Origin: Nymphaea colorata
Lineage: Eukaryota; Streptophyta; Magnoliopsida; Nymphaeales; Nymphaeaceae
NCBI RefSeq assembly: GCF_008831285.2
Contig: NC_045144.1
Span: 16,665,858 to 16,729,857, forward strand
Direction of reading: 5' to 3'
DNA length: 64,000 bases
Positions 16,101 through 37,825 of the stretch are shown in pieces. The position numbers and the translations under genes were made by a program. Every line of letters starts with the position of its first letter. Within the stretch, counting starts at the first letter, position 1. The notes beneath the pieces were generated by a model. The model made no database searches, was not told the DNA's origin, and saw only the letters and a list, made by a program, of their open reading frames with translations.

Positions 16101-19100
16101 CTATACACGGAAATAGGACCCCTGAAAAGTAGCATTTACTGTCAATAGTAGTCTAAGAAAGAGAAAATCTACGATAAAGAATGTCAAGGTCACTAAGTTG
16201 AATATGAAAGAAACTAATGCCATTTAATCGCATTTAATCCGCAGTCTGCACCTTGCTGACAAACTATTCCTGAGACTAAAGGACCCAAAGCAATAAATGC
16301 TTATATCTGGAGAAACATTCAACAATTCAACTATTTGTTAAACAATGTTAAGAGAACTACAAGCTTATGTTGCAACATGCAAAAAATATAGGACTTTACC
16401 ATGACATCATTTTATTTGAGAAAGTATTTATAGGCCAACTAAAATATGAGTGGTAATTTTGGTGCTTTTTTCTTTAAGGGGCACTTAATAAGTTGTAGTC
16501 TAAGTGGATCAAACAACAAATATAAAAATGTTTTTGAATACCTAAGAGTAATGAACAAAACCTTAGCTAAAACATAAAAAATGGATGTCTTACCAGCAAT
16601 TTAAATGTTTACATAAACTAGGAGTACAAGTAAATTTACAAAAAGTTGGAGATTTATCATTTTAGAAATTTAAAGCAGCATTCATATCATATAATTTGGT
16701 AAGTTACACAAGATATCGAAATCTTAACACCAGAAATCCATGGAAGACAGAGGTGCCTTCCAGTGTGAAATTTTCTGGAGTTTCTCATGTTAAGCAGAAA
16801 CAGATGAACCACCTATTTTGTAGTTGGCAAATCAGTGAATAAGACTCAGATTGGCTGACTACTGGATCACAGTAAAGAAGTTGACTCGGTGACTCGTCCA
16901 GGCCAGGTCATAAATTCTTTATAGCATATTTTCACTACAAATTGAGGAAGGAGTTGAACATATCTATAAAATAACAAGCACCGAGTAAATGCAATCAAAC
17001 TGTAGTTTAGGGACCCAACTATAAAGTATAAAATAATTAGTAATAAACAAGTAAACAACATTTACTAAAATAGTTTATTTCTTAGTGATATTGAGTAATA
17101 CTTAGACTTCCTGCTGAATAAAACAGCTGAGAATCAGCCAATCCTGAGCAGATTCAACCAATGCAGCCCATTCATCCCATTTAGAACTTATTCAGTTGCA
17201 TTTGGCCAAATGCTTGACTCCGGGACAATCCAGGTCAACTCACCAGGATTTACAAGTTACAACTATGATCTAATTAGTAAATCAGCATACTTCTCAAAAC
17301 TCTTTTCTAACTTATCGCCAAAAGCATAATGTAATAGAGATGAAAGAGTAACAACAATAACACAAAATGTTAAGAAGATGATCATATGGGCAGCAATTCA
17401 AATAACTGCTTGTTGTACACTACGGTATCAGATTTCACTCTGACTAAGTTGCATATTTACTAAGCACATTATGAAGATAAATCATGAATGCAATACTATC
17501 AGTGACCAGAAGGCTCAGACTGACTGAAGAATTTGGCAGATATCTGACCTTAAGTATGTGCATGAAACACATTCACATGCAATGCTATTTACCTGAACAA
17601 GCTGGGGACCTGCCAGCTTAAGAAAAGTAGCATTTGTTTGAGCTGCACAGGCACGTGCCATAAGTGTTTTACCCGTTCCTGGAGGTCCATAAAGAAGAAC
17701 TCCTTTAGGTGGGCGGACCCCCAATTTCTGAAATCTTTCTTTGTGAGTCATTGGCAACACAATGGCCTCAACAAGTTCTTGGATCTGCAAAATTACCTCC
17801 AATAGATGTCATAAGTGCTTCACAGGTGTGAATACTTTTAAAAGAAAGGATTAAAGAGATACTAACAATCTAACATTAAACATTTACAAACTGCAAACTA
17901 GTACACTTAAACATGCAATATTAGTAGAAGAAAAAGAAAACACATCAAGTCAACATTGTCCACTTGGAACCATCTTACCTGCTTTTCAAGCCCTCCTATA
18001 TCATTGTAGTCTTCTGTTGGTTTTTCATCCACCTCCATGGCCTTAACACGGGAGTCATATTCAGATGGTAAAGTATCCAATATCAAGTAGCTGTCTTTGT
18101 TAACTCCAACTAAATCTCCAGGCTTTAGCTTGTCTGGGTCTACAAGCCCAACCACAGGAAGAAAGATTGTCTGTCATAAAATACAGAACAGAAGAGCAGC
18201 AATTGAGGCATCAAAGAACAACTACTTCTAAGTTTATAACCTACTATTACCCATAATCCATATACAGTTATTACCACATATTCAACTTGATACTTTTCTA
18301 AATAATGGCATTCTTGCAATCAATGATAATCGATAAGGAATTTGCAAAGGAAAGAGTTTCATGCTTCCCATCTTTGTAGCAACTACTTCTAGAACGAGGA
18401 GGAAAGGGGTAATTTTTTTTCTCCTCATCCCAATTCCAATTCATCAGTTTTATTACAATAGCTTTTAAAATTTTAGTTCAAATGTAATGTAAAATATAAA
18501 TGACCTTTCTCACTGCAGGTTTACTGGACTAGGAGAAAATAGCAACCCTGTTGTCACCTCCACAAATGAACATGTGGTTTATTCTCCATTACACTGCCCA
18601 CCTAAGGTTACATTTTTTAAATTTTATCCAGATTTTGTATGACCTCATACTTCATAATCCATATCCCATATCAATATAATAACGGATTTACAATGGACTT
18701 ATCCTTGTATTTTAGCCATCTCTATAAGCAATAGATTTGAAGATTTTTAGTCAAATGATCAAAATTTTGTCTATTGGCATGCCAGAAGAACCATCCATTA
18801 TCCACAAGCGTAAATAGAAAGAAGATTTTGCTTATGCAGTAAATACTAAGCAAAAAATCAAAATAGAAAGGGAATCTAATTGTAGATTAAACTGTACTGC
18901 AGAACTGCAATTAGTAGAGATTCTTACCTGGCGTGTAGAAGTTTTCAGGACAACACATTTCCCTTTTCTTTGAGAGTCTAAATCAACGTTTGCACCATCT
19001 TCTTCAGCCTCATCCTCAGGATTCATTTCTAGGATCTGCAAAGCTAGTAGAATGTGAGAATACCCACAGAGGGTCATCTGATTAGCATCAATTCATTTTC

Positions 19101-22199: not shown

Positions 22200-22790
22200 A
22201 CTTTTATTTATATAACAATTTTAATTCATAAAGATTCACGGTGACAAAAATACCTCAAACTACGATGCCTAATAAAAATAAGACATCAAAAACACCAACC
22301 CATATACACTTTCCCCAATCTAAGCCAAGATCCAACTTCATTGTATTAGAATAAAAAAAGCTTAGGGCAATGAACGGCTTCTGACAAGCAATTCACTCAC
22401 TAAATCCCCACAAGAACCAAAGAATCGAATGAATTCCAAAAAGACCTTGACGGCACACACAATCGCGCCGGCGAAGACACCCGACAGAAACCCATCGAAA
22501 CCTTCAGACCTAAACCTAAGACTACGGATTAGACTCCAAAGCCAATGGAAAACCCTAGAATTTTGACACTCAAAATCCGGCGAGCACGGGCGGACATAAG
22601 AAGAAGAAAGGGGAGAAGGCAGAGTTTCACCGACAATATCTAGAAAGAGAGAGAGAGTGGACCTGAATCCCTGTATGCTGATCGTCGTCGGCAATCGGTG
22701 AGACGTCCGGCGGGTGACTGTGTTTTTGAAAGAAGCGGCAAAGTTAATATCAACGGAAGCCCATCCGACGGTTTTTATCCTTCTGTTTTG
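22200..22790 (-). other. Possible promoter and first exon of an unrecognised minus-strand transcript
   Basis: This stretch is richer in C and G than its surroundings. Its minus strand has features of a plant transcription start: a TGGGCTTCC site-II-like element near 22757, then a GC-rich leader (ccgccggacgtctcacc). After that, a frame of about 110 codons stays open from about 22694 to 22362 but has no ATG start. The frame contains a hydrophobic stretch (FLSGVFAGAIVCAVKVFLEF) that could be a membrane segment. I recognise no family. It may be a non-coding transcript, a pseudogene or chance. Confidence 0.25.
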
Positions 22791-25402
22791 TGAGTAGTTT
22801 CCAGATTTTACTTTATTGGAAAAACTTGCAGCACAAGAAGCCTTAACATGCAGTTTTTAAATACCACAAAAAAAGATAATGAAAATTTTTCAAAATCATA
22901 CATAAAAAAATGTTCAACAATAAAAATACATACTGTACCTTTACATATTGTTAAAATCACATATAGATTGTTGTACGGTATAAAAAGATTGATAAAAATA
23001 TAATTCATAAATAAGTACATTTAGCATTTTTAACTCTATAAAATATTATAAAAAATATGTCGAACTAATTTTGCCACTGCAATTTTTTCCTTGACAAGAA
23101 ATTTCCGGACGTTAAGAAAAAAAAATATCAGATAATTATTTTGTGGAGAAACAAACTACTGACTTATTTAGATGTAGTTTGGGAAAAAGCTAATGCAAGC
23201 TAATGAACTTACAGTTTGTTCCTTCTAACAGTATTTGAGGACTTTATAATACTTGCTAGTTTAATTTAGCAATAACAAAGAAGTTATTGACAAATTAAAT
23301 GCAAAACTTCCGCTGCAATGCAAAAATGCCCTCCCTCGTGACCAAAAATGAAAATTGACAACATTACCATCAACGGAAACTGATCATGAGTTTTGTGGTT
23401 TTCTCTCTTTGATGCTTTTGGATATGCCATGCCACCACTTTTTCTTGGCAATATAATTCTTTTAACACTTTTCTTCGACGTGTTGGCCATATTCTATGTA
23501 TTCCATACTTCGATTTTAATTCTAGAAATGCAAAGAAAAGAACAAAAGATACGGCTGGAGAGAATTTTAGAAATTACTAAATAAAAATTTCAGTTTTGCT
23601 TTGTTGACACAAGTTATAATTTTATGAAAACAAACCTAAGGATTTGAAGTAAACTTTTATTAACCTGAAAAGCAAAAAATGTCAGCTAAGGTCATGAAAA
23701 GGTAAATTACTAATACAAGGTAATATTTAGAAAATATTGTAGATAAGTTTTTTAACTTTTCCATGAAAACAGAATTTCGCTTTAAGCCTTGATTGATAGT
23801 TTTTTAAACCTCCTAGTTCCTATTAAAAAATGATTGAAAGTAAATTTTTGAAAACGATAGCAACGTATTTGATAGTTCGGATGGAAATTATTATTTAATA
23901 AAAAATGGAAATGACCAAAATGTCTATGTTAGTAAAATAAAAAATCTTCAAAAAGTGGAATCAGAAAAGTCTCTAATCGATTACAAATAAGTTATCAGTA
24001 TAACATAGAAACTGCTCTTACCAAATTGATGGCCTCTTCGTCTAGTAATTTAAGCGGCTTTAATTGCCATTCACAATGGCCCATTAAAACAATATTTAAT
24101 TAATCATGTTATGCCAAAAAAAAAAAAAAAAAGGAAAGAAAAATTTTCATATTCATGCCAATCTTTTGCCCATAATTTTAAAAGTTGTCCAATTTTCATA
24201 ATTTTCTTAAAAGTCCCACATTTTTCGTAGAAATTGTTAACTCAAGCCTTCAATGAACTTTCAGTACTGACTCAAAAATTAGAAAACGTGAACTTTGTTT
24301 TTATTCAACATCTACCTTCGATCAGTAGATTATATCTCAATGTCTCATTAGAAGGGAGAGGTTACATCTTCTCAAACATGGAGTTACATCTTTGGATGCC
24401 TTTTTCTTAATCACTAGCCAAGCCAAAAAAATTTGTCTGAAAAGAGCACTATTTCAATAACATTAATGCTTCTAGGGCACCTATGCATAAATAATCAAAT
24501 CTATCAAATTATTAAAGAAAAAATAAATAAACTTTAGAGGGTTGGTATGTGCAACTGCACACACCAGATGGGCCATTGCCCCGTATTAACAAGCAGGCTG
24601 CCTCTTGACCCAGCCAGTGGGACCAGTGAGCAGGGATGGAGAAAAGGGAGATCCGCATGGGTCCTCGCTCCACCTCAATTTAAAAAAAAAAATACATGTA
24701 AATTTAAAAAAAAATCACTTTGAAAAATGTTATTTCGGTTCTTGTCAAAATTTAAGAAAATTTAATTCGGCTCCCCTCATAAAAAATTTCTGGCTTCGCT
24801 CCTGCCAGTGACCCCTCTATCGACAGTTACAAGATGAAGGGATAGAGCTCTTGACCACATTCAACACAGTGAGCCCTCTGTCGACAAAGGATTGCACCTA
24901 AAAACACCAACCCATCTGTCTCTTGTAAATAGAGGATCAAAACAACAAATGTTTGCTTACTTTAAGTGCCAGCTTGGATGACACTTTTAAACGATATTTT
25001 AGTTTGATTTCAAAACATACATTATTGGAGGTTGGCCTTCTTAGGGTATTAAGAGAAAACGACATTTTGAGTATGTCATGCACCACCCAAACACGAACTA
25101 GTTTTCAAGAACTCATTACAAAAACCAAATTTTAACTTCAAATGATATTGAAGTCTTTATTTGACAGTTTCAATGAGAAATTTAGCTTAAAAATATTGCA
25201 AAAGATTATTTTCTACACTAATTTAAAAAAAAAATTAAAAACCTTGAATGGGAATAGATGTGGGGGGTCTTTGCTTGATGGCTCTGTGTCGGTTGATTTA
25301 TAATTTTCAGAAAATTACTCTATCGGTTGAAAAGTTTTAATAATTCATTGTGTCCCATAGACGCTTCATTCGAAAATCATTTTCAAAAAGTAATAAATCA
25401 AC

Positions 25403-27554: not shown

Positions 27555-28700
27555 AAAAAAAGACCCATCTTGAAAGATGGTGGTATAATCAGAGCCTCTA
27601 ATTGAGATTCATATCCATTTCATTAAATAAAGGAATGAACAACAACAGCCCAACTATTTTTTTTTTAGTTCCTTGCACTCTTCTGAATATATCAGCGATG
27701 CGGACATCGTTGCAGAAACTGATTGCTTAAATATGATTTTAAAACTTGAGCAACAAAGACTACCACCGTGTTTGGATGCACACCTACAAGCATGTTTCGG
27801 CTGTTTTACCTCCAAAAATGCCTTTTCTTTGGCTTGTTTAGATGGCTTGAAAGCGAAGAGTTTTCAGCAAAAAGTGTGAATGAAAAATAAAAAAAGCTAT
27901 TTCCCTCATATTATTCATTTAACAACTAGTTTTTAAAGTATGTTTTTCAAAACTCATTAAAAAAATCATTTTTTGCCAAACCACTGTGTTATCCATCCAA
28001 ACACTACCCACAAAGTTACCACTTACCCGCATGTTTCTCAAATTACTTTTGCTTTTTTCTAAGAGCAGTGTGATGTTCAACTTTTTTTGAAAGTAGTGTA
28101 AATGAAGACAAAAGAACCTTTTGAGCCTTTTTCTAAGAGCAGTGTGGTGCTCCCAACAGTTTAGATGGGTCGGATATAATTTTCTTAGATATGACTTCCA
28201 ATCTGACGTTCTCTGTGTTCTACTGGAATCTATTTGTCCAAGTATCAACTCTAAATGCAACAGCTTGTTTGTGGGGTCCAACTCCAAACGCTCAATCAAC
28301 GTCCAACAACCTGTTTGTGGGTGTTTGAATGATAACATCAAAACTCAATTTTATGAAAACAAAGTTCTTTAATAAGTTTTTAAAAATTGGTGATTTTATT
28401 TGAATGACATATCCAAGGCTGTTTTCTGCCTAAGGCAGTTTCCTAAGTAAACAATAGAAAAAAAAAAGCCTAGTAATTGTTTTTGTTTAATTTTTATTTC
28501 ATAAAGAGGTGTTTAGATAACACTTCAAAACCAAGCGTTGGAGTGTTTGAATAACATTGACTCTGACTTTCAAGAAAACCCAATTTTAACAAAACCTGGT
28601 TTGTAAAAGAGAGTGATAGTTAAAAACCGATGTGTCATCCAAACAAACAAATAAAGAGAGTGTTTGATGACAATCTAAAACCAGGTTTTGCCTCAAGACA
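27555..28700 (+). repeat. Directly duplicated segment B (left copy)
   Basis: Homologous to 34849-35765 in the same orientation, sharing catcttgaaagatgg, ataatcagagcctctaatt and agaaactgattgcttaaata. It is partly homologous to 42875-44200. No conserved reading frame was found in the copies. Confidence 0.9.
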
Positions 28701-28759
28701 CTATTTTAAAATATGAGGCTATTAAACACTGTCTTATAGAAACAACACTAGGTGTCTTG

Positions 28760-29240
28760 TTTGAGATCTCAAATATGAGGCCATTAAACACTCTCTTTGA
28801 AAAACAACAGCATGCATCTTGTGTGAAGGTTGTTAACACAAATTGAGAATCTCCATTTCAGCACATGAAGTAGACTTAGCAAACAATTTCAAATCTCTAA
28901 ATGTCCACACAAAGTACATCTAATTAAGAAACAAAGCAAACCACCTTTTCCATGAAAAGAAAAGAGGCTATTTTCAGACAATTTGAAATCATTATATGTC
29001 CAATCAAAAGACATCCAACAAGAAACAAAGCAAACCACCCTTTCCTTAAGAAGAAATGGTGTTGTTTTCTGTCCCATTATTCATTGATGAACAGTATGTC
29101 ATGAGCCTTTTTCCCATGACGAGGAAAGCTTTTGATCACACTAGTAACTATCAACAACATCATTAAGCATCGGAGATGTTACTGCTGTGTCAGGTGCATT
29201 AAAGACCTTTACTTGCTTGGTTGGTGTCCAGTTTAGTGCC
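28760..29240 (+). repeat. Directly duplicated segment C (left copy)
   Basis: Homologous to 37826-38330 in the same orientation, sharing catcttgtgtgaaggttgtt, aaatctctaaatgtccacac and gaaagcttttgatcacacta. Here C follows B directly. In the right-hand copy B and C are separated by about 2 kb. Confidence 0.88.
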
Positions 29241-29284
29241 TTTACTTCAAATGGATTGCTCATGCTCGGTGCCAGCTGCATATG

Positions 29285-29600
29285 GGGCCTAAGTGAGTCG
29301 AGCAAAACTCTTCGTTACTGAGATCAGAGAACTGGTTGAGCACCAACTTTAGGAGTGGCTTCCAGCATTATGTTGGTCGATGTAGAGCAGGTTGTCTTTG
29401 AATATCCCAAATCTATTCTCCCTCTCCGTCAAATCATTGTAGGATTTGTCGTGCTCTACTATCCACTTCTCAAATAGTTTTTTCACCTCTTGATCACTCT
29501 GACCACCAAAGTTCTACCCGTCATTACTATTTATTGGCATGTCCAGAGCAGCAATACCCTACCAGTAGCAAAGCCATTGCACTGGGTGCCATGGCTGAAA
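29285..29600 (-). pseudogene. Papain-family cysteine protease fragment (signal peptide + I29 propeptide), broken
   Basis: Read on the minus strand from 29592, the sequence starts MAPSAMALLLVGYCCSG, a signal-peptide-like stretch, and then meets a stop. A shifted frame continues with KLFEKWIVEHDKSYNDLTER, NRFGIFKDNLLYIDQHNAGS and, after another frameshift at about 29350, LVLNQFSDLSNEEFCSTHLG. This is the ERFNIN/GNFD-type I29 propeptide of plant papain-like proteases (secreted or vacuolar, RD21/SAG12-like group). The mature catalytic domain is absent: beyond 29285 the sequence no longer matches. With at least one stop, one frameshift and no catalytic part, it is a gene fragment, probably captured or left over from rearrangement. 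Confidence 0.85.
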
Positions 29601-29718
29601 TGATCTCAACACCTTACAAGGAAGTCCAAAAAAAATATTCGGGAACATATAAAATCATAAAATGAATTATAGCCCTACAAAAAGAAGAACTACTATACAA
29701 TATAAGCTCCACGTGCAA

Positions 29719-29857
29719 TTAGGAGACAATATATGTGGATGTGATAAGAGATCCAAATTTGAACTTGGATACAAAACTAAAGTTGGATTAGGAGACAATA
29801 TATGTGGATGTGATAAGAGATCCAAATTTGAACTTGGATACAAAACTAAAGTTGGAT
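29719..29857. repeat. Two-copy tandem repeat, 69-bp unit
   Basis: Two essentially identical direct copies of 69 bp containing ggagacaatatatgtggatg, tgataagagatccaaatttg and aacttggatacaaaactaaa. The unit is a multiple of three and stays open on the plus strand for both copies, but the frame has no recognisable domain. Confidence 0.95.
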
Positions 29858-30382
29858 CTTAATTGAGCTGAATAGTGCAAAGTCTTACATTTAAATGCAA
29901 TGTTGAGTGAGAAGTAAAAATATTTCATCTTACTACCCAACAAGAGAGCTTATGCCTCACCCTTACTCTATCTGTTGGGGTGTCAGACCTACGGAATGAG
30001 AAAATGTACTTGTTGAATCAATCTCAATCGATGAGAATAAAGCCAGTCAATAAGAGTGATGGACACATCTTATAAAAAAATAGTTTGCAGTTGTGTTGAG
30101 CAGTCACCAGAATTTTCTTCAAACTGGTGCAACTGCACCTGTGAAACTAGCAAATCATCCTCACATTTCGTAAATCTAAGCTTCATTCTCTGCATAAAAA
30201 GAAGATCTATAGTTCTTGTTACCTGCATATTCTTGTCTTCTTTGTAATAATATGTAGGCTAATGATCATCGTTGGATCTAAAATACTACACAACTTCAGT
30301 CTCTTGCGCTCTTGATATGTATGATATTCTTGTCCAGTTAAAAATTTACCTAGTGCAAGACTCAAACTAAAGGGGATAGATC

Positions 30383-33300
30383 TATGTCCAGCGCTACGAA
30401 GTCGCTCGTTCTTGACAGATCCGATTGGGTGTGATCGACTGAAAAACGTGGCTCCCTCATCGGCCAGACAATCATATCTACAATGAAAAAAAAAAGAAGC
30501 AGAGAAAGAAGAAAAGCCTACGGGTAAGCAATGAGAGTTTGGATCGAATCTCCCATCGAAAAGGACAAACTCCGAACTAAATCATCGCGAACTTCTCCAC
30601 GGAGTCTTTGACCATGAAGTAACGAATGTGGGGGCGGTCGAACTAGAAAGACTCCTGCCACGGCGCATTCACAACACATGTCATCTCGACGTCCATCGCT
30701 ACGAAGTTGCTCGTTCTTGACAGATCCGATCGGGTGTGATTGAATGAAAAACAAAGCTCCTCCAGTGGCCAGACAATCATATCTACATATCTCAGAGAGA
30801 TAAAGAGGTTTCTCTGAGGAAGACAATCCCTAAAAGTTGCCCGAAGTGTCTCGAGCGTAGATTCAGAAGAATCTATCATCTCGACGTCCAGCGCTACGAA
30901 GTCGCTTATTCTTCACAGATCCGATCGGGTGTGAACGAATGAAAACAAGGCTCCCGCAGCGAAATCATATCGATAATAAAAAAGGAAGCTGTGAGAGGAA
31001 AGGACAAACTCCGAACTGAACCATCGCGAACTTCTCCGTGGAGTTTTTGACCATGAAGTACCAAACGTGAGGGTGGTCGAACTCGAAAGACTCCCGTCAC
31101 GGCACGTTCACGATGTCTATCATCTCGACGTCCAGAACTACGAAGTCGCTTGTTCTTGACAGATTTGATCGGGTGTCATTGAATGAAAAACAAGACTCCC
31201 CAGCGGCCAAAGAATCATATCTACATATCTTGGAGAGAGAAAGAGGCTTCTCCGACGAAGACAATCCCTAAAAGTAGCCCGAAGTGTCTCAACAGTAGAT
31301 TCATAAGAACCTGTCATCTCGACGTCTAGCGTGACAAAGTTGCTCGTTCTTGACAGATCCGATCGGGAGTGATCAAATGAAAAACAAGACTCCCCTAGTG
31401 GTCAGACAATCATATCTACAATAAAAAAAAAAAGGAAGCTACAAAAGGAAAAAAAGTATACGCGTGAGCAATGAGAGTTTGGCTCAAATCTTCCCATCAG
31501 AAAGGACAAACTCCGGACTGAATCATCGCGAAATTCTCCACGGAGTCCTTGACTATAAAGTACCGAACGTGGGGGTGGTCGAACTCGAAAGACTTCTGCC
31601 ATGGTGCATTCACGACACCTGTCATCTCGACGTCCAGCGCTGTGAAATCGCTTGTTCTTGACAGATCCGATCGAGTGTGATTGAATGAAAAACAAGGTTC
31701 CACCAGCGGCCAGACAACGATATCTACATATCTCAGAGAGAAAGACGCTTCTCTGACGAAGAACATCCCTAAAAGTCGCCTAAAGTATCTCGAGCGTAAA
31801 TTCAGAAGAACCTATCATCTCGACGTCCAGCGCTACAAAGTTGCTCGATTTTGACAGATCCAATCGGGTGTGATCGAATGAAATACAAGGCTCCCCCAGC
31901 GGCCAGACAATCATATCTACAATAAAAGAAAAGAAGCTGCGAAAGGAAAAAAAGCCTATGGGTAAGCAATGAGAGTTTGGTTCGAATCTTCCCATTGGAA
32001 AGGACAAACTCCGAACTGAACCACCGCGAACTTCTCCACGGAGTCTTTGACCATGAAGTACCGAACACATGGGGGCGGTCGAACTCGAAAGACTCCCACC
32101 ACGGTGCGTTCACGACGCCTGTCATCTCGACGTTCTTGACAGATCTGATCGGGTGTGGTGTGATTGAATGAAAAACAAAGTTCTCCCAGCGGCCAGACAA
32201 TCATATCTACATATCTCAGATAGAGAAAGAGGCTTACCCGATGAAGACAATCCCTAAAAGAGGCCCCAAGTGTTTTGAGCATAGATTCAGAAGAAAATGT
32301 CATCTCGACGTCCAGCGCTACGAAGTCACTCATTTTTGAAAAATCTGATCGATTGTGATCGAATGAAAAACAAGGCTCCCCCAGCGGCCAGACAATCATA
32401 TCTATAATAAAAAAAAGGAAGCTGCCAAAGAAGAAAAGCCTACGGTTAAGCAATGAGAGTTTGGCTCGAATCTTCCCATCGCGAACTTCTCCGTGGAGTC
32501 TTTGACCATGAAGTACCGAGTGTGGGGGCGGTTGAACTTGAAAGACTCTAGCCACGGCCCGTTCATGACGCCTATCATCTCGACGTTCTTAACAGATCCG
32601 ATCGGGTGTGATTGAATGAAAAACAAATCCCTCCCAACGGCCAGACAATCATATCTACATATTTGAGAGAGAGAAAGAGGCTTCTCCGACGAAGACAATC
32701 CTTAAAAGTGGCCCGAAGTGTTTCGAGCGTAGATTCAAAAGAACATGTCATCTCAACGTCCAACACTACGAAGTCGCTCGTTTTTGAAAGATCTGATTGG
32801 TTGTGATCGAATGAAAAACAAGGCTACCCCAACGGCCAGACAATCATACCTACAATTTAAAAAAAAAGGACATTGCAAAAGAAGAAAAGCCTACCGATAA
32901 GTAATGAGAGTTTAGCTCGAATCTTTCCATCAGAAAGGACAAACTCTAAACTAAACCATTGCGAACTTCTCCACGGAGTCTTTGACCATGAAGTAATGAA
33001 CGTGGCGGCAGTCGAACTCCAAAGACTCCCTCCACAGCGCGTTTACGACACCTGTCATCTCAGCGTCCACTGCTACGAAGTCGCTCGTTCTTTATAGATC
33101 TGATCTGGTGTGATGAAATGAAAAACAAGGCTCCCTCAACGGCCAGACAATCATATCTACATATCTCAAAGAAAAAAAGAGGCTTCTCTGGCGAAGATAA
33201 TCCCTAAAAGTGGCTGGAAATGTCTCTAGCGTAGATTCAGAAGCACTTGTCATCTCGATGTCCAGCGCTACGAAATCGCTCGTTTTTGACAGATCCGATC

Positions 33301-34850
33301 GAGTGTGATCGAATGAAAAACAAGTCTCCCTAGCGGCCAGACAATCATATCTACAATTAAAAAAAAAAATGAAGCTGCGAAAGGAAAAAAACCTATGGGT
33401 AAGCAACGAGAGTTTGATAGGAATCTTCCCATCGAAAAGAACAAACTTCGAACTAAACTATTGCGAACTTCTCTGCGGAGTCTTTGACCACGAAGTACCG
33501 AACGTCGGGATGGTCGAACACGGAATACTCCCATCACGTCGGATTCACGACGCCTGCCATCTTGACGTTTTTGAGAGATCCGATTGGGTGTGATTGAATG
33601 AAAAACAAGGCTCCCTCAGCGGCCAGACAATGATATGTACATATCTCAGAGAGAGAAAGATGTTTTTCCGACGAAGACAATCCATAAAAGTGGCCCGAAG
33701 TGTCTGCAGCATAGATTCAGAAGAACATGACATCTTGATGGTTAGCGCTATGAAGTTGATCGTTCTTGAAAGATCCGATCGAGTGTGATCGAATGAAAAA
33801 CAAGGCTCCTCTAGTGGCCAGACAATCATATCTACAATAAAAAAAAAAGTTGCGAAAGGAGAAAAGCCTACAGGTAAGTAATGATAGTTTGGCTCGAATC
33901 TTCCCATTAGAAAGGACAAACTTCAAACTGAACCATCGCGAACTTGTCTGTGGAGCCTTTGACCATGTAGTACTGAACGTAGAGGCGGTCGAACTCGAAA
34001 GACTCCCGCCACGGCCCGTTCACGATGCCTGTCATCTCAATGTCCAGCGCTACGAAGTCGCTCATTCTTGACAGATCCAATGGGGTGTGATTGAATGAAA
34101 AATAAGGCTCCCCTGGTGGCCAAACAATCATATCTACATATCTCAGAGAGAAAAAGATGCTTCTTTAATGAAGACAATCCCTAAGAGTAGCCTGAAGTGT
34201 CTTGAGTGTAGATTCAAAAGAATATGTCATCTCGACGTCCAATGCTACGAAGTTGTTCGTTCTTGACAAATCCGATCAGGTGTGATCGAATGAAAAACAA
34301 GGCTCACCAAGCGGCCAGACAATCATATCTACAATAAAAAAAAAAGGAAGCCGCGAAAAAAAAAAGCCTATTAGTAAACAAATGAGAGTTTGGCTCGAAT
34401 CTTCCCATCAGAAAGGACAAACTCCGAATTGAACCATTGCGAACTTCTCTGCAGAGTCTTTGACCAAGAAGTACCGAACGTGGGGGTGGTCGAACTCGAA
34501 GGGCTCTCACCATGGTGAGTTCACGACGCCTGTCATCTCGACGTCTAGTGTTACGAAGTGGCTCGTTCTTGACAGATCTGATCGGGTGTGATTGAATGAA
34601 AAACAAGGCTCCCCTAATGGCCAGACAATCATATCTACATATCTTAGAGAGAGAAAGATGTTTCTCTGATGAAGACAATCCCTAAAAGTGGCCCGAAATA
34701 TCTTGAGCGTAGATTCAGAAGAACCTGTCATCCCGACATTCAGCGCTATGAAGTCGTTTGTTCTTGACAGATATGATCGGGTGTAATCGAATGAAAAACA
34801 AGGCTTCCCCAGCAGCCAGACAATCATATCTACAATAAAAAAAGGACTCA
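30383..34850 (-). repeat. Tandem array of about nine ~0.5-kb units derived from a PARN-like gene fragment
   Basis: A core of about 105 bp (contains tccagcgctacgaagtcgct, ttcttgacagatccgat and gccagacaatcatatctaca) occurs 19 times, alternating between two contexts. Ten A-type cores (near 30383, 30868, 31312, 31814, 32298, 32746, 33249, 33729, 34228, 34728) have an A-rich tail on their left. Nine B-type cores (near 30678, 31119, 31621, 32121, 32575, 33055, 33560, 34031, 34534) have a tail containing tctcagagagagaaagaggc. The A+B period is about 445-505 bp. Both B cores at 32121 and 32575, and one at 33560, lack about 30 bp. On the minus strand each unit contains a PARN-like exon plus pieces of flanking intron and exon. 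It is a minisatellite-like amplification, not a CRISPR array or a set of intact genes. Confidence 0.93.
31480..31680 (-). pseudogene. PARN-like poly(A) ribonuclease exon, example copy inside the array
   Basis: The minus-strand frame from about 31670 reads SDFTALDVEMTGVVNAPW, then KSFEFDHPHVRYFIVKDSVE and FAMIQSGVCPF. After that comes TGA where other copies keep CGA or CAA, followed by tryptophan. This corresponds to the start of the PARN/CAF1-type DEDD nuclease fold: the D and E of ALDVEMTG are the first two metal ligands, and the QFGVCPFRW strand follows as in human PARN. In the copy near 31.98 kb the reading continues FGVCPFQWEDSNQTLIAYP to a gtaggc donor, showing the natural exon end. No copy has the remaining nuclease exons, so none can be active. 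Other copies are damaged by stops, small indels or a 30-bp deletion. Confidence 0.85.
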
Positions 34851-35765
34851 TCTTGAAAGATGGTATAATCAGAGCCTCTAATTGGTAAAATCTTTGAGAT
34901 TCATATTCATTTCATTAAATAAAGGAATGAACAACAGCCCAACTATTTTTTTTATTTATTTTTAGTTCCTTGCACTCTTCTGAATTTATCTGCGATGCGG
35001 ATATCTTTGCAGAAACTGATTGCTTAAATATGATTTTAAAACTTGAGCAACAAAGACTACCATCGTGTTTGGATACACACCTAAAAACATGTTTCGGCTG
35101 TTTTACCTCTAAAATGTCTTTTCTTTGGCATGTTTAGATGTCTTGAAAGCAAGGAGTTTTCAACAAAAAGTGGAATGATAAATAAAAAAGCTATTTCCCT
35201 CATATTATTCATTTAACAACTAGTTTTACCTGTCCACCCAAATAGGGAAAATATGTTTTTCAAAACTCATTAAAAAAAAATCAGTTTTTGCAAAACCAAT
35301 GTGTTAAAAAAAATCATTTTTTTGGAAACCAATGTCCAACTCCAAACGCTCAATCAACGTCCAACAACCTGTTTGTGGGTGTTTGAATGATAACATCAAA
35401 ACTTAATTTTATGAAAACAAAGTTTTTTAATAAGTTTTTAAAAGTTGGTGATTTTATTTGAATGACATATCCAAGGCTGTTTTATGCCTAAGGCAGTTTC
35501 CTAAGTAAACAATAGAAAAAAAAAAGGCTAGTAATTGTTTTTGTTTAATTTTTATTTCATAAAGAGGTGTTTAGAAAAACTTCAAAACCAACGTTGGAGT
35601 GTTTGAATAACATTGACTCTGACTTTCAAGAAAACCCAATTTTAACAAAACCTGATTTGTAAAAGAGAGTGATAATTAAAAACCGATGTGTCATCCAAAC
35701 AAACAAATAAAGAGTGTTTGATGACAATCTAAAACCAGGTTTTGCCTCAAGACACTATTTTTAAA
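34849..35765 (+). repeat. Directly duplicated segment B (second copy)
   Basis: Aligns with 27555-28700, with a deletion of several hundred bp in the middle (roughly 28.01-28.27 kb of the left copy is missing). It begins exactly where the PARN-like array stops. Confidence 0.9.
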
Positions 35766-36592: not shown

Positions 36593-37825
36593 GAGACCAA
36601 AGATTCAGCACCAAACTTTTCTGAAAATTTTGTAACATCTTAGTTGACCGAACCAAGCATGCTTGGAGTTTTGAATTTTAAATTGTGGCAGCGAAATTGA
36701 ATCCGATCCTTGGTCTGGACCCAGGCTCGCTATATATGGGCATATGAGAGACAACATCTTGATGACTTATCCTAACCTGAAGCTCTTGAATTTGTTGAGG
36801 AAAGCAGCACCCGATTCTAATAAAGGTCTTGTCTACAATGTAAAATTTCAAACACGAGTCCAACCCAACTTATATCAGGAACTAATTAAACTTCAGATCC
36901 AGTTATGGGCATATGATAGCGACCTGATGCTGGACGGATCTTGTTCTCTTCTAGTTTCAACCAACTCTGAACCAGAGTCTGAAATAGGTAATCTAAAATC
37001 TAATGACTTGGTCTTTACGGCCCCGAAGGAACCCTCTACGTATCTCTCTATATGTGACGGCTGTCTAACATCCAGTTCATTATCTAACTCTTACAGTTTT
37101 GTTCTTGAGGGATAATGTTTGACGAAAAATATCTGTCTAGCAGCAAAACTGGACTTTCATTTGTGAAGAGTGAGAAAGCCACATATCTTTGTCCTGATTT
37201 ACTGAGATTTCTTCTTCGGGCAAGATGTTATATTTTTGCCTCCATTTCTTTTAATTTTCCTTCTTTTTGCTTCTGATTGCCGGCAAAGTTCTATGTAGTA
37301 GTCTAAACCTAGACATCTTGTCATCATGCAGGCACAACTTCTACCACATGGCCAACCAAACAACACTCCATTAGGTTGCAAGTTTAAACTAGAAGGCAGT
37401 AAGGCAGATCACTCACGATCTTGATAAAACTAAGCTTGAGAAAAACTTAGTTGGACAATCTAGCTTTCCATAAGTGAGTGCAAATGGGACTTTTCCCGTG
37501 TCATTTACAAAAAAATTGGGTTTTGGGTGTGTCAATAAAATACACAAACCAGATTCCCGAAACTCATTAAAGAAAAACTGATTTTCAGAAAATCAAGTTT
37601 TTACAAAACTGAGTTAAAATAAGAGTGTTCTCCAAGTGCCCAAAAGAGGACTTCGTAAGCCAATTGACCACCTATACATAGCTGTCAAGACAGTGATGGT
37701 TATGTTTTGATGTGGTTTTGGTAATATATTGGTATCTTAAACCTTTTTTTTTACATAATGGTGAAATCTAGTGTTTGTTTACTTTGTAGGCCCCACATAA
37801 AAGTAATGTCAGATCAGTCAGATCT

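Follow-up and report, generated by a model that had tools for sequence, protein, structure and literature searches.

A tandem array built from a PARN exon and a fragment of mitochondrial DNA in the genome of Nymphaea colorata

One stretch of the Nymphaea colorata genome, 64,000 nucleotides long and referred to here as the window (contig NC_045144.1; C7:16665858-16729857, where C and a number denote a sequence of the assembly), carries on its minus strand a tandem array of units of about 500 bp, in which part of a nuclear protein-coding exon is fused to a scrap of mitochondrial DNA. The exon is exon 1 of a gene for the deadenylase PARN. Its parent gene, the chimeric make-up of the units, their tandem arrangement, the pseudogene context and the decay can all be observed directly. 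The array is very probably a tandemly amplified, non-functional pseudo-exon, the outcome of ectopic copying of a PARN 5' half, patching with organelle DNA, local amplification, silencing and decay. Judged from its sequence, the array most likely has no present function.

Structure of the array

Cutting and aligning the units defined nine full copies and a partial tenth at window 30383-34843, equivalent to C7:16696240-16700700 (Table 1). The full units measure 445-501 bp, span positions 34836 down to 30485 and share one orientation, which bears out a preliminary description of this DNA that had proposed about nine minus-strand units of about 0.5 kb; the partial unit adds 102 bp. The low end of the array, 30383, was placed by hand from that description, and local alignments stop at 30386. 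Whole-genome searches covered the 408-Mb genome, and with a whole unit as query they returned 12 matches, namely the nine units, the partial unit, one exon on C3 and one mitochondrial stretch; this search skips very common words and can miss short dispersed pieces, as it did the 29-bp piece of the insert discussed below. Head-to-tail units, as in satellite DNA, are present; long homogenised arrays and multiple loci are absent, the nine units lying at a single locus with star-like divergence.

Along the minus strand, the consensus unit opens with a block of about 110 bp (block R). Next come 40 bp of PARN exon 1 from upstream of the nuclease start and then a 117-bp insert, after which PARN sequence resumes at the peptide DFVALDVEMTG and continues through the rest of exon 1 into about 35 bp of intron 1. 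Block R is an internal duplication of the insert end plus DFVALDVEMTG. About half of the unit is PARN sequence, the insert and the duplication making up the remainder. Over 225 bp the consensus is 92.9% identical to parental exon 1 and intron 1, with individual units at 80-90%, and the 40-bp piece upstream of the insert matches the parent at 33 of 40 positions, a score equalled by none of 2000 letter shuffles. The preliminary description had recognised the PARN content, while the unit proved to be bigger than it had supposed, and it had missed both the insert of mitochondrial DNA and the setting in a pseudogene. The peptides it quoted are composites: three of the four full-length strings occur in none of the six reading frames, and QFGVCPFQWEDSNQTLIAYP is found once, in U6. 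The splice donor that it read after the peptide, gtaggc, is there in U2, U4, U5 and U9 and not in the other five units. A GT donor of any kind survives in five of the nine, the fifth being GTATAC in U7; elsewhere AT replaces GT (three units) or the site is deleted (U8).

In the unit consensus, 88 bp at the start of the insert are 94.3% identical to the 617,195-bp mitochondrial contig, at C782:442722-442809. The insert is carried by all nine full units, with mitochondrial-matching stretches of 76-94 bp in the eight other than U9. Among the matches listed for this mitochondrial stretch (151 were found), there is one other long nuclear relative, on C12 (88%). The array consensus is nearer to the mitochondrion (94.3% over 88 bp) than to the C12 copy (91% over 80 bp), and the insert thus matches mitochondrial DNA better than it does the other nuclear relative found, as expected of a nuclear mitochondrial DNA segment (NUMT). 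One frame on the mitochondrial contig reads as nad1. The mitochondrial open frame compared with Pfam matched no family. The C12 relative (C12:12462552-12462820, 88% identical to mitochondrial DNA) lies about 2 kb from another mitochondrial match and is itself most likely a NUMT.

The last 29 bp or so of the insert are a dispersed nuclear sequence, present with 1-3 mismatches at five sites outside the array (on C6, C2, C4 and, twice, C1). All of these sites except that on C2 share a longer sequence that includes a tRNA-Lys-like stretch related to C782:167432-167499; ARAGORN called a tRNA at the C4 locus only, among four loci scanned.

The PARN gene and its relation to the array

A 64-residue composite of the peptides in the preliminary description matches the Pfam family CAF1 (PF04857) with an E value of 1.6e-17 and solved PARN chains with 1.5e-4. 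Its best match in the genome is a single stop-free exon on C3 (E 6.3e-34, 88% protein identity). The 13 matches listed for this search comprise that exon, ten that fall within the array (one unit being split in two) and two weaker, more distant PARN-like loci, at C3:4.87 Mb (33%) and C8:4.97 Mb (30%). The family and the PARN-like best hit had been anticipated, and an exclusive match to a transposon protein, the outcome that would have spoken against a PARN origin, did not occur.

A search for the parent gene, as had been proposed, located it in this genome on a different chromosome, at C3:17465215-17472832; its alignment with the units covers the nuclease-coding part at the end of exon 1 and about 35 bp of intron 1. 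In a scan of the genome with the CAF1 profile, the parent matched positions 1-125 and 179-320, the latter from C3:17465215-17465884. The exon 1 frame has 48 residues before the CAF1 match, and exons 2 and 3 follow in consistent splice phase, with exon limits judged by eye and the gene read as exons 1-3 plus separate downstream stretches. When exons 1-3 are joined, they match CAF1 over positions 1-169 (E 5.7e-52) and also human PARN (E 2.7e-24). It is only in this joined form that exon 3 can be placed in CAF1, and its start in human PARN: the parental exon 3 frame alone matched no Pfam family and no solved structure at E values up to 10, and the corresponding frame from a second copy at C3:22.96 Mb (see below) had as its sole family match an unrelated one, under that family's cut-off.

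In the array, six stretches exceed the curated CAF1 cut-off. Their matches fall within profile positions 18-91 of 320, save that one extends through a neighbouring exon 3 remnant to position 168. We take the D and E of the Exo I motif to lie within the PARN segment of the array. Every one of the nine units has a stop or a frameshift, and none holds a complete nuclease domain in an open frame. A separate mitochondrial stretch, C782:60128-60185, matches the parent PARN locus near C3:17471422-17471478 (88% over 57 bp). In PMC8509313, Arabidopsis PARN (AHG2) is described as targeting mitochondrial mRNAs, and most plant paralogs as having an N-terminal extension with a predicted mitochondrial signal.

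Pseudogene context and surroundings

A degenerate copy of PARN exon 3 lies about 35 bp past the downstream end of the array, and the exon 1 array and exon 3 keep the parental order and orientation. The 1.7 kb that separates these pieces in the parent is missing from the window. A second truncated copy of the PARN 5' region, 87-91% identical, is found at C3:22958584-22960361 (within C3:22952000-22961900); it retains a 100-codon exon 3 frame and lacks exons 1 and 2. The two copies have one left junction in common, at which PARN DNA meets flanking DNA that they share. This common junction, together with the exon 3 that adjoins the array, indicates that the array arose inside a truncated PARN copy. 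The proposal that it is an amplified fragment of the first catalytic PARN exon, and not ordinary satellite DNA, thus gains support from the adjoining exon 3 as well as from the parent alignment. A processed pseudogene was considered and rejected on the introns, for the units keep the start of intron 1 and the exon 3 remnant keeps its intron flanks.

Window 23096-44480, around the array, is a mosaic in which local direct repeats recur at offsets of about 7 and 15 kb. The region also holds C3-related pieces and DNA collinear with C14:1.873-1.894 Mb; between that C14 stretch and the array no match was reported at E 1e-10. A perfect 69-bp tandem repeat of two copies (29718-29857) stands just downstream of the exon 3 remnant. 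The mosaic is bordered by a minus-strand gene that we read as the proteasome subunit gene RPT5 (a Pfam search with one exon matched nothing) and by a plus-strand gene with a WHEP-TRS domain in Pfam, presumably for glycyl-tRNA ligase. A 146-codon plus-strand open frame (36675-37112) sits in DNA related to C3:23.063 Mb; neither it nor the frames at 22365-22856 and 18835-19092 matched Pfam.

Table 1. Features of the array and its surroundings. Positions are those of the window unless a contig is named.
Feature	Position	Strand	Basis
Entire array (nine full units, one partial)	30383..34843	-	unit alignment
Unit U1, 501 bp	34336..34836	-	
Unit U2, 497 bp	33839..34335	-	
Unit U3, 481 bp	33358..33838	-	
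Unit U4, 501 bp	32857..33357	-	
Unit U5, 448 bp; 29-bp deletion in PARN part	32409..32856	-	
Unit U6, 485 bp; PARN part stop-free, with 2-bp insertion	31924..32408	-	
Unit U7, 501 bp	31423..31923	-	
Unit U8, 445 bp; donor region removed by deletion of about 50 bp	30978..31422	-	
Unit U9, 493 bp	30485..30977	-	
Partial unit U10, 102 bp; broken at downstream array edge	30383..30484	-	
PARN exon 1 core and intron 1 start in U9, 88% identical to C3:17472405-17472627	30486..30707	-	
Mitochondrial-derived insert in U9, 88 bp, 89.8% identical to C782:442722-442809	30738..30825	-	
Sites of the 29-bp motif	C6:23002302; C2:32841047; C4:11505362; C1:36599745; C1:36615961		
Degenerate PARN exon 3 flanked by 16 and 19 bp of intron, 89% identical to C3:17470341-17470695	29994..30348	-	
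DNA in common with flank of truncated PARN copy at C3:22.957 Mb, 81%	28765..29760	.	
Remnant related to papain-type protease propeptide; 85% to C3 stretch with Inhibitor_I29 open frame (E 1.7e-21)	29293..29760	-	
Right flank from array edge: truncated copy of local repeat 27555-27933, 88%	34837..35227	.	
Local direct repeat, 97% identical to 28276-28711	35334..35765	.	

Decay of the units

The PARN part contains one to three stops in eight of the nine units, and in the ninth, U6, it is frameshifted by the 2-bp insertion. Its changes from the consensus comprise 100 nonsynonymous, 48 synonymous and 9 stop-creating substitutions, against 100.0, 51.1 and 6.0 expected without selection, when the same changes are placed randomly on like sites. 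This pattern fits neutrality.

Measured against leave-one-out consensuses, the units show 309 changes, with C>T or G>A accounting for 200, the reverse transitions for 28 and transversions for 81. Transitions affect 16.8% of CG sites (410), 13.6% of CHG sites (242) and 8.7% of CHH sites (1121), as compared with 1.3-1.5% at T and A sites (2040). The exon 3 remnant has a weaker bias on the window branch (12 C>T or G>A versus 4 reverse, among 25 changes in 328 columns), and the other two exon 3 branches have none (4 versus 4, and 4 versus 6). The excess of C>T and G>A, with the bias in exon 3, fits what would be expected of methylated, silenced DNA.

Mean divergence of the units from the consensus is 9.5%, and units differ from one another by about 16%. 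Adjacent units are 83.6% alike versus 83.5% for other pairs, and the unit tree is star-like, with none of its six inner branches supported. Since neighbours show no extra likeness and the tree lacks support, the array is most simply explained by a single burst of amplification followed by independent decay. Ongoing homogenisation by unequal crossing-over was entertained and found unsupported on the same two grounds.

Origin of the array and alternative explanations

Because the parent gene, a sister copy and the mitochondrial fragment can all be identified in one genome, much of the order of events is readable. The junctions shared by the window and C3:22.96 Mb show that a PARN 5' half was initially copied next to protease-related DNA, and that the relatives of this composite are what persist at the two loci. 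In the lineage leading to the window, exon 1 would then have gained its 117-bp insert, 88 bp of mitochondrial and about 29 bp of dispersed nuclear DNA, probably as filler patching a double-strand break, a repair that usually leaves inserts of this kind. The insertion probably preceded amplification because all nine units carry it. Amplification, most simply in a single burst, then raised the chimeric exon, with its 35 bp or so of intron 1 and its internal duplication of about 110 bp, to nine or more copies. At about this stage the promoter side, exon 2 and the greater part of introns 1 and 2 were lost. The amplification may have gone through unequal crossing-over, re-replication or insertion of a rolling-circle product. 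The substitution pattern suggests that the array was finally cytosine-methylated and silenced, leaving the units to decay independently.

Several observations sit less comfortably with this history. The 29-bp motif was not found in the mitochondrial genome C782 at up to 3 mismatches, although at four of its five nuclear sites outside the array it stands beside a tRNA-Lys-like stretch of mitochondrial similarity. A 22-bp deletion is common to U3, U5 and U6, and parental bases are retained in U3, U6 or U9; such shared variants may reflect amplification in more than one step, or deletions that recurred between short ACG repeats. The C>T bias, for its part, depends on a majority consensus, and methylated DNA that is not repetitive has it too.

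Capture by a transposon of the Pack-MULE, CACTA or Helitron type, which would have moved the PARN half-gene along with the protease-related DNA and contained the array, is possible but unlikely. Two gene fragments joined into one composite, and present at two loci, are what gene-capturing elements produce, and copies of the flanking pieces are dispersed. Yet these flanks belong to repeats on C3 (3.3 and 21.8-23.1 Mb) and at C2 3.0 Mb, so that plain ectopic duplication from C3 suffices; the right edge of the array falls inside, and not at the end of, a repeat that is longer at C3:20.242 Mb; and no element ends were identified, no systematic search for terminal repeats or target-site duplications having been made. 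It is rather improbable that the repair event that added mitochondrial DNA also launched the amplification, such that organelle DNA at breaks seeds satellites from host exons, with the methylated array perhaps still sending small RNAs against the parental PARN, the Arabidopsis counterpart of which acts on mitochondrial mRNA. A role for the array as a source of small RNAs that damp or methylate parental PARN in trans, a speculation of the preliminary description, is very unlikely. The parental stretch of 427 bp, covering exon 1 and the very start of intron 1, does share 35 of 404 24-mers and 50 of 407 21-mers exactly with the array, the longest exact match being 39 nt, and the pattern of decay is suggestive of methylation, a modification that RNA can direct in plants. 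Against this, all units face one way and the six inverted pairs present are of 21-23 nt and 74-78% complementary, from which no long hairpin is expected; the sequence carries no sign of selection, and identity to the parent is eroding, at 80-90% per unit.

Apart from a single stop, where the parent has the codon CGA, the consensus unit reads open through PARN, insert and PARN. Gene predictors may annotate the locus as a multi-domain PARN-like gene. That the array is a coding gene of tandem exons for a multi-PARN-domain protein has next to no probability, and was rejected on the stops in eight of the nine units, the frameshift in the other and the neutral substitution pattern, to which the loss of the GT donor from four of nine units may be added. 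The in-frame insert was likewise dismissed as a mark of selection for an expressed fusion: at 117 bp it is a multiple of three, and two of the three frames through it read open, so that chance alone would give an open frame about 2 times in 9. Tandem arrays are common and open to misassembly, and an ordinary satellite or assembly artefact that resembles PARN by chance was thus weighed as well; it too was rejected as virtually excluded by the data, given that the homology is highly significant, that outside the array a whole unit finds just the parent exon and the mitochondrial stretch (two of the 12 matches), and that a difference of about 16% between units is not that of collapsed or duplicated reads.

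Relation to known systems

The elements of the pseudo-exon array are individually known: gene fragments, NUMT fillers and young tandem arrays. Among the papers listed from the one open literature library searched, none, judged by title and the start of the abstract, describes a nuclear exon joined to mitochondrial DNA and multiplied along with it, and the same library yielded no paper on a tandemly repeated PARN pseudogene in plants. The array exon corresponds to the exon 1 nuclease start of plant PARN (AHG2/AtPARN, a CAF1/DEDD deadenylase), and the C3 parent can be aligned to this family and to human PARN; unlike the plant enzyme, the array holds a partial exon 1, broken in every unit, and the full nuclease domain is absent.

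Gene fragments captured by plant transposons, as presented in PMC13317346, resemble this locus in that decayed pieces of two host genes stand together at a new site, whereas here one exon is tandemly amplified and no element ends were identified, without a systematic search for them. Organelle DNA, according to PMC7037861, serves as filler at double-strand breaks in plants and is joined by 1-7 bp of microhomology or bluntly. The insert is similar to such NUMT fillers, being a short mitochondrial piece in a patchwork, and the C>T/G>A decay resembles that of nuclear plastid DNA; it differs in lying inside a nuclear exon copy and in having been co-amplified with it. Finally, satellites are reported to arise from short tandem repeats of other sequences, for instance retrotransposon-derived ones (PMC7004042), and like these the array is a short head-to-tail repetition of what had not been satellite DNA. 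Its seed differs, a coding exon plus organelle DNA, as do its confinement to nine copies at one locus and the lack of visible homogenisation, and the array may be regarded as an early stage of satellite-type DNA arising from a protein-coding exon.

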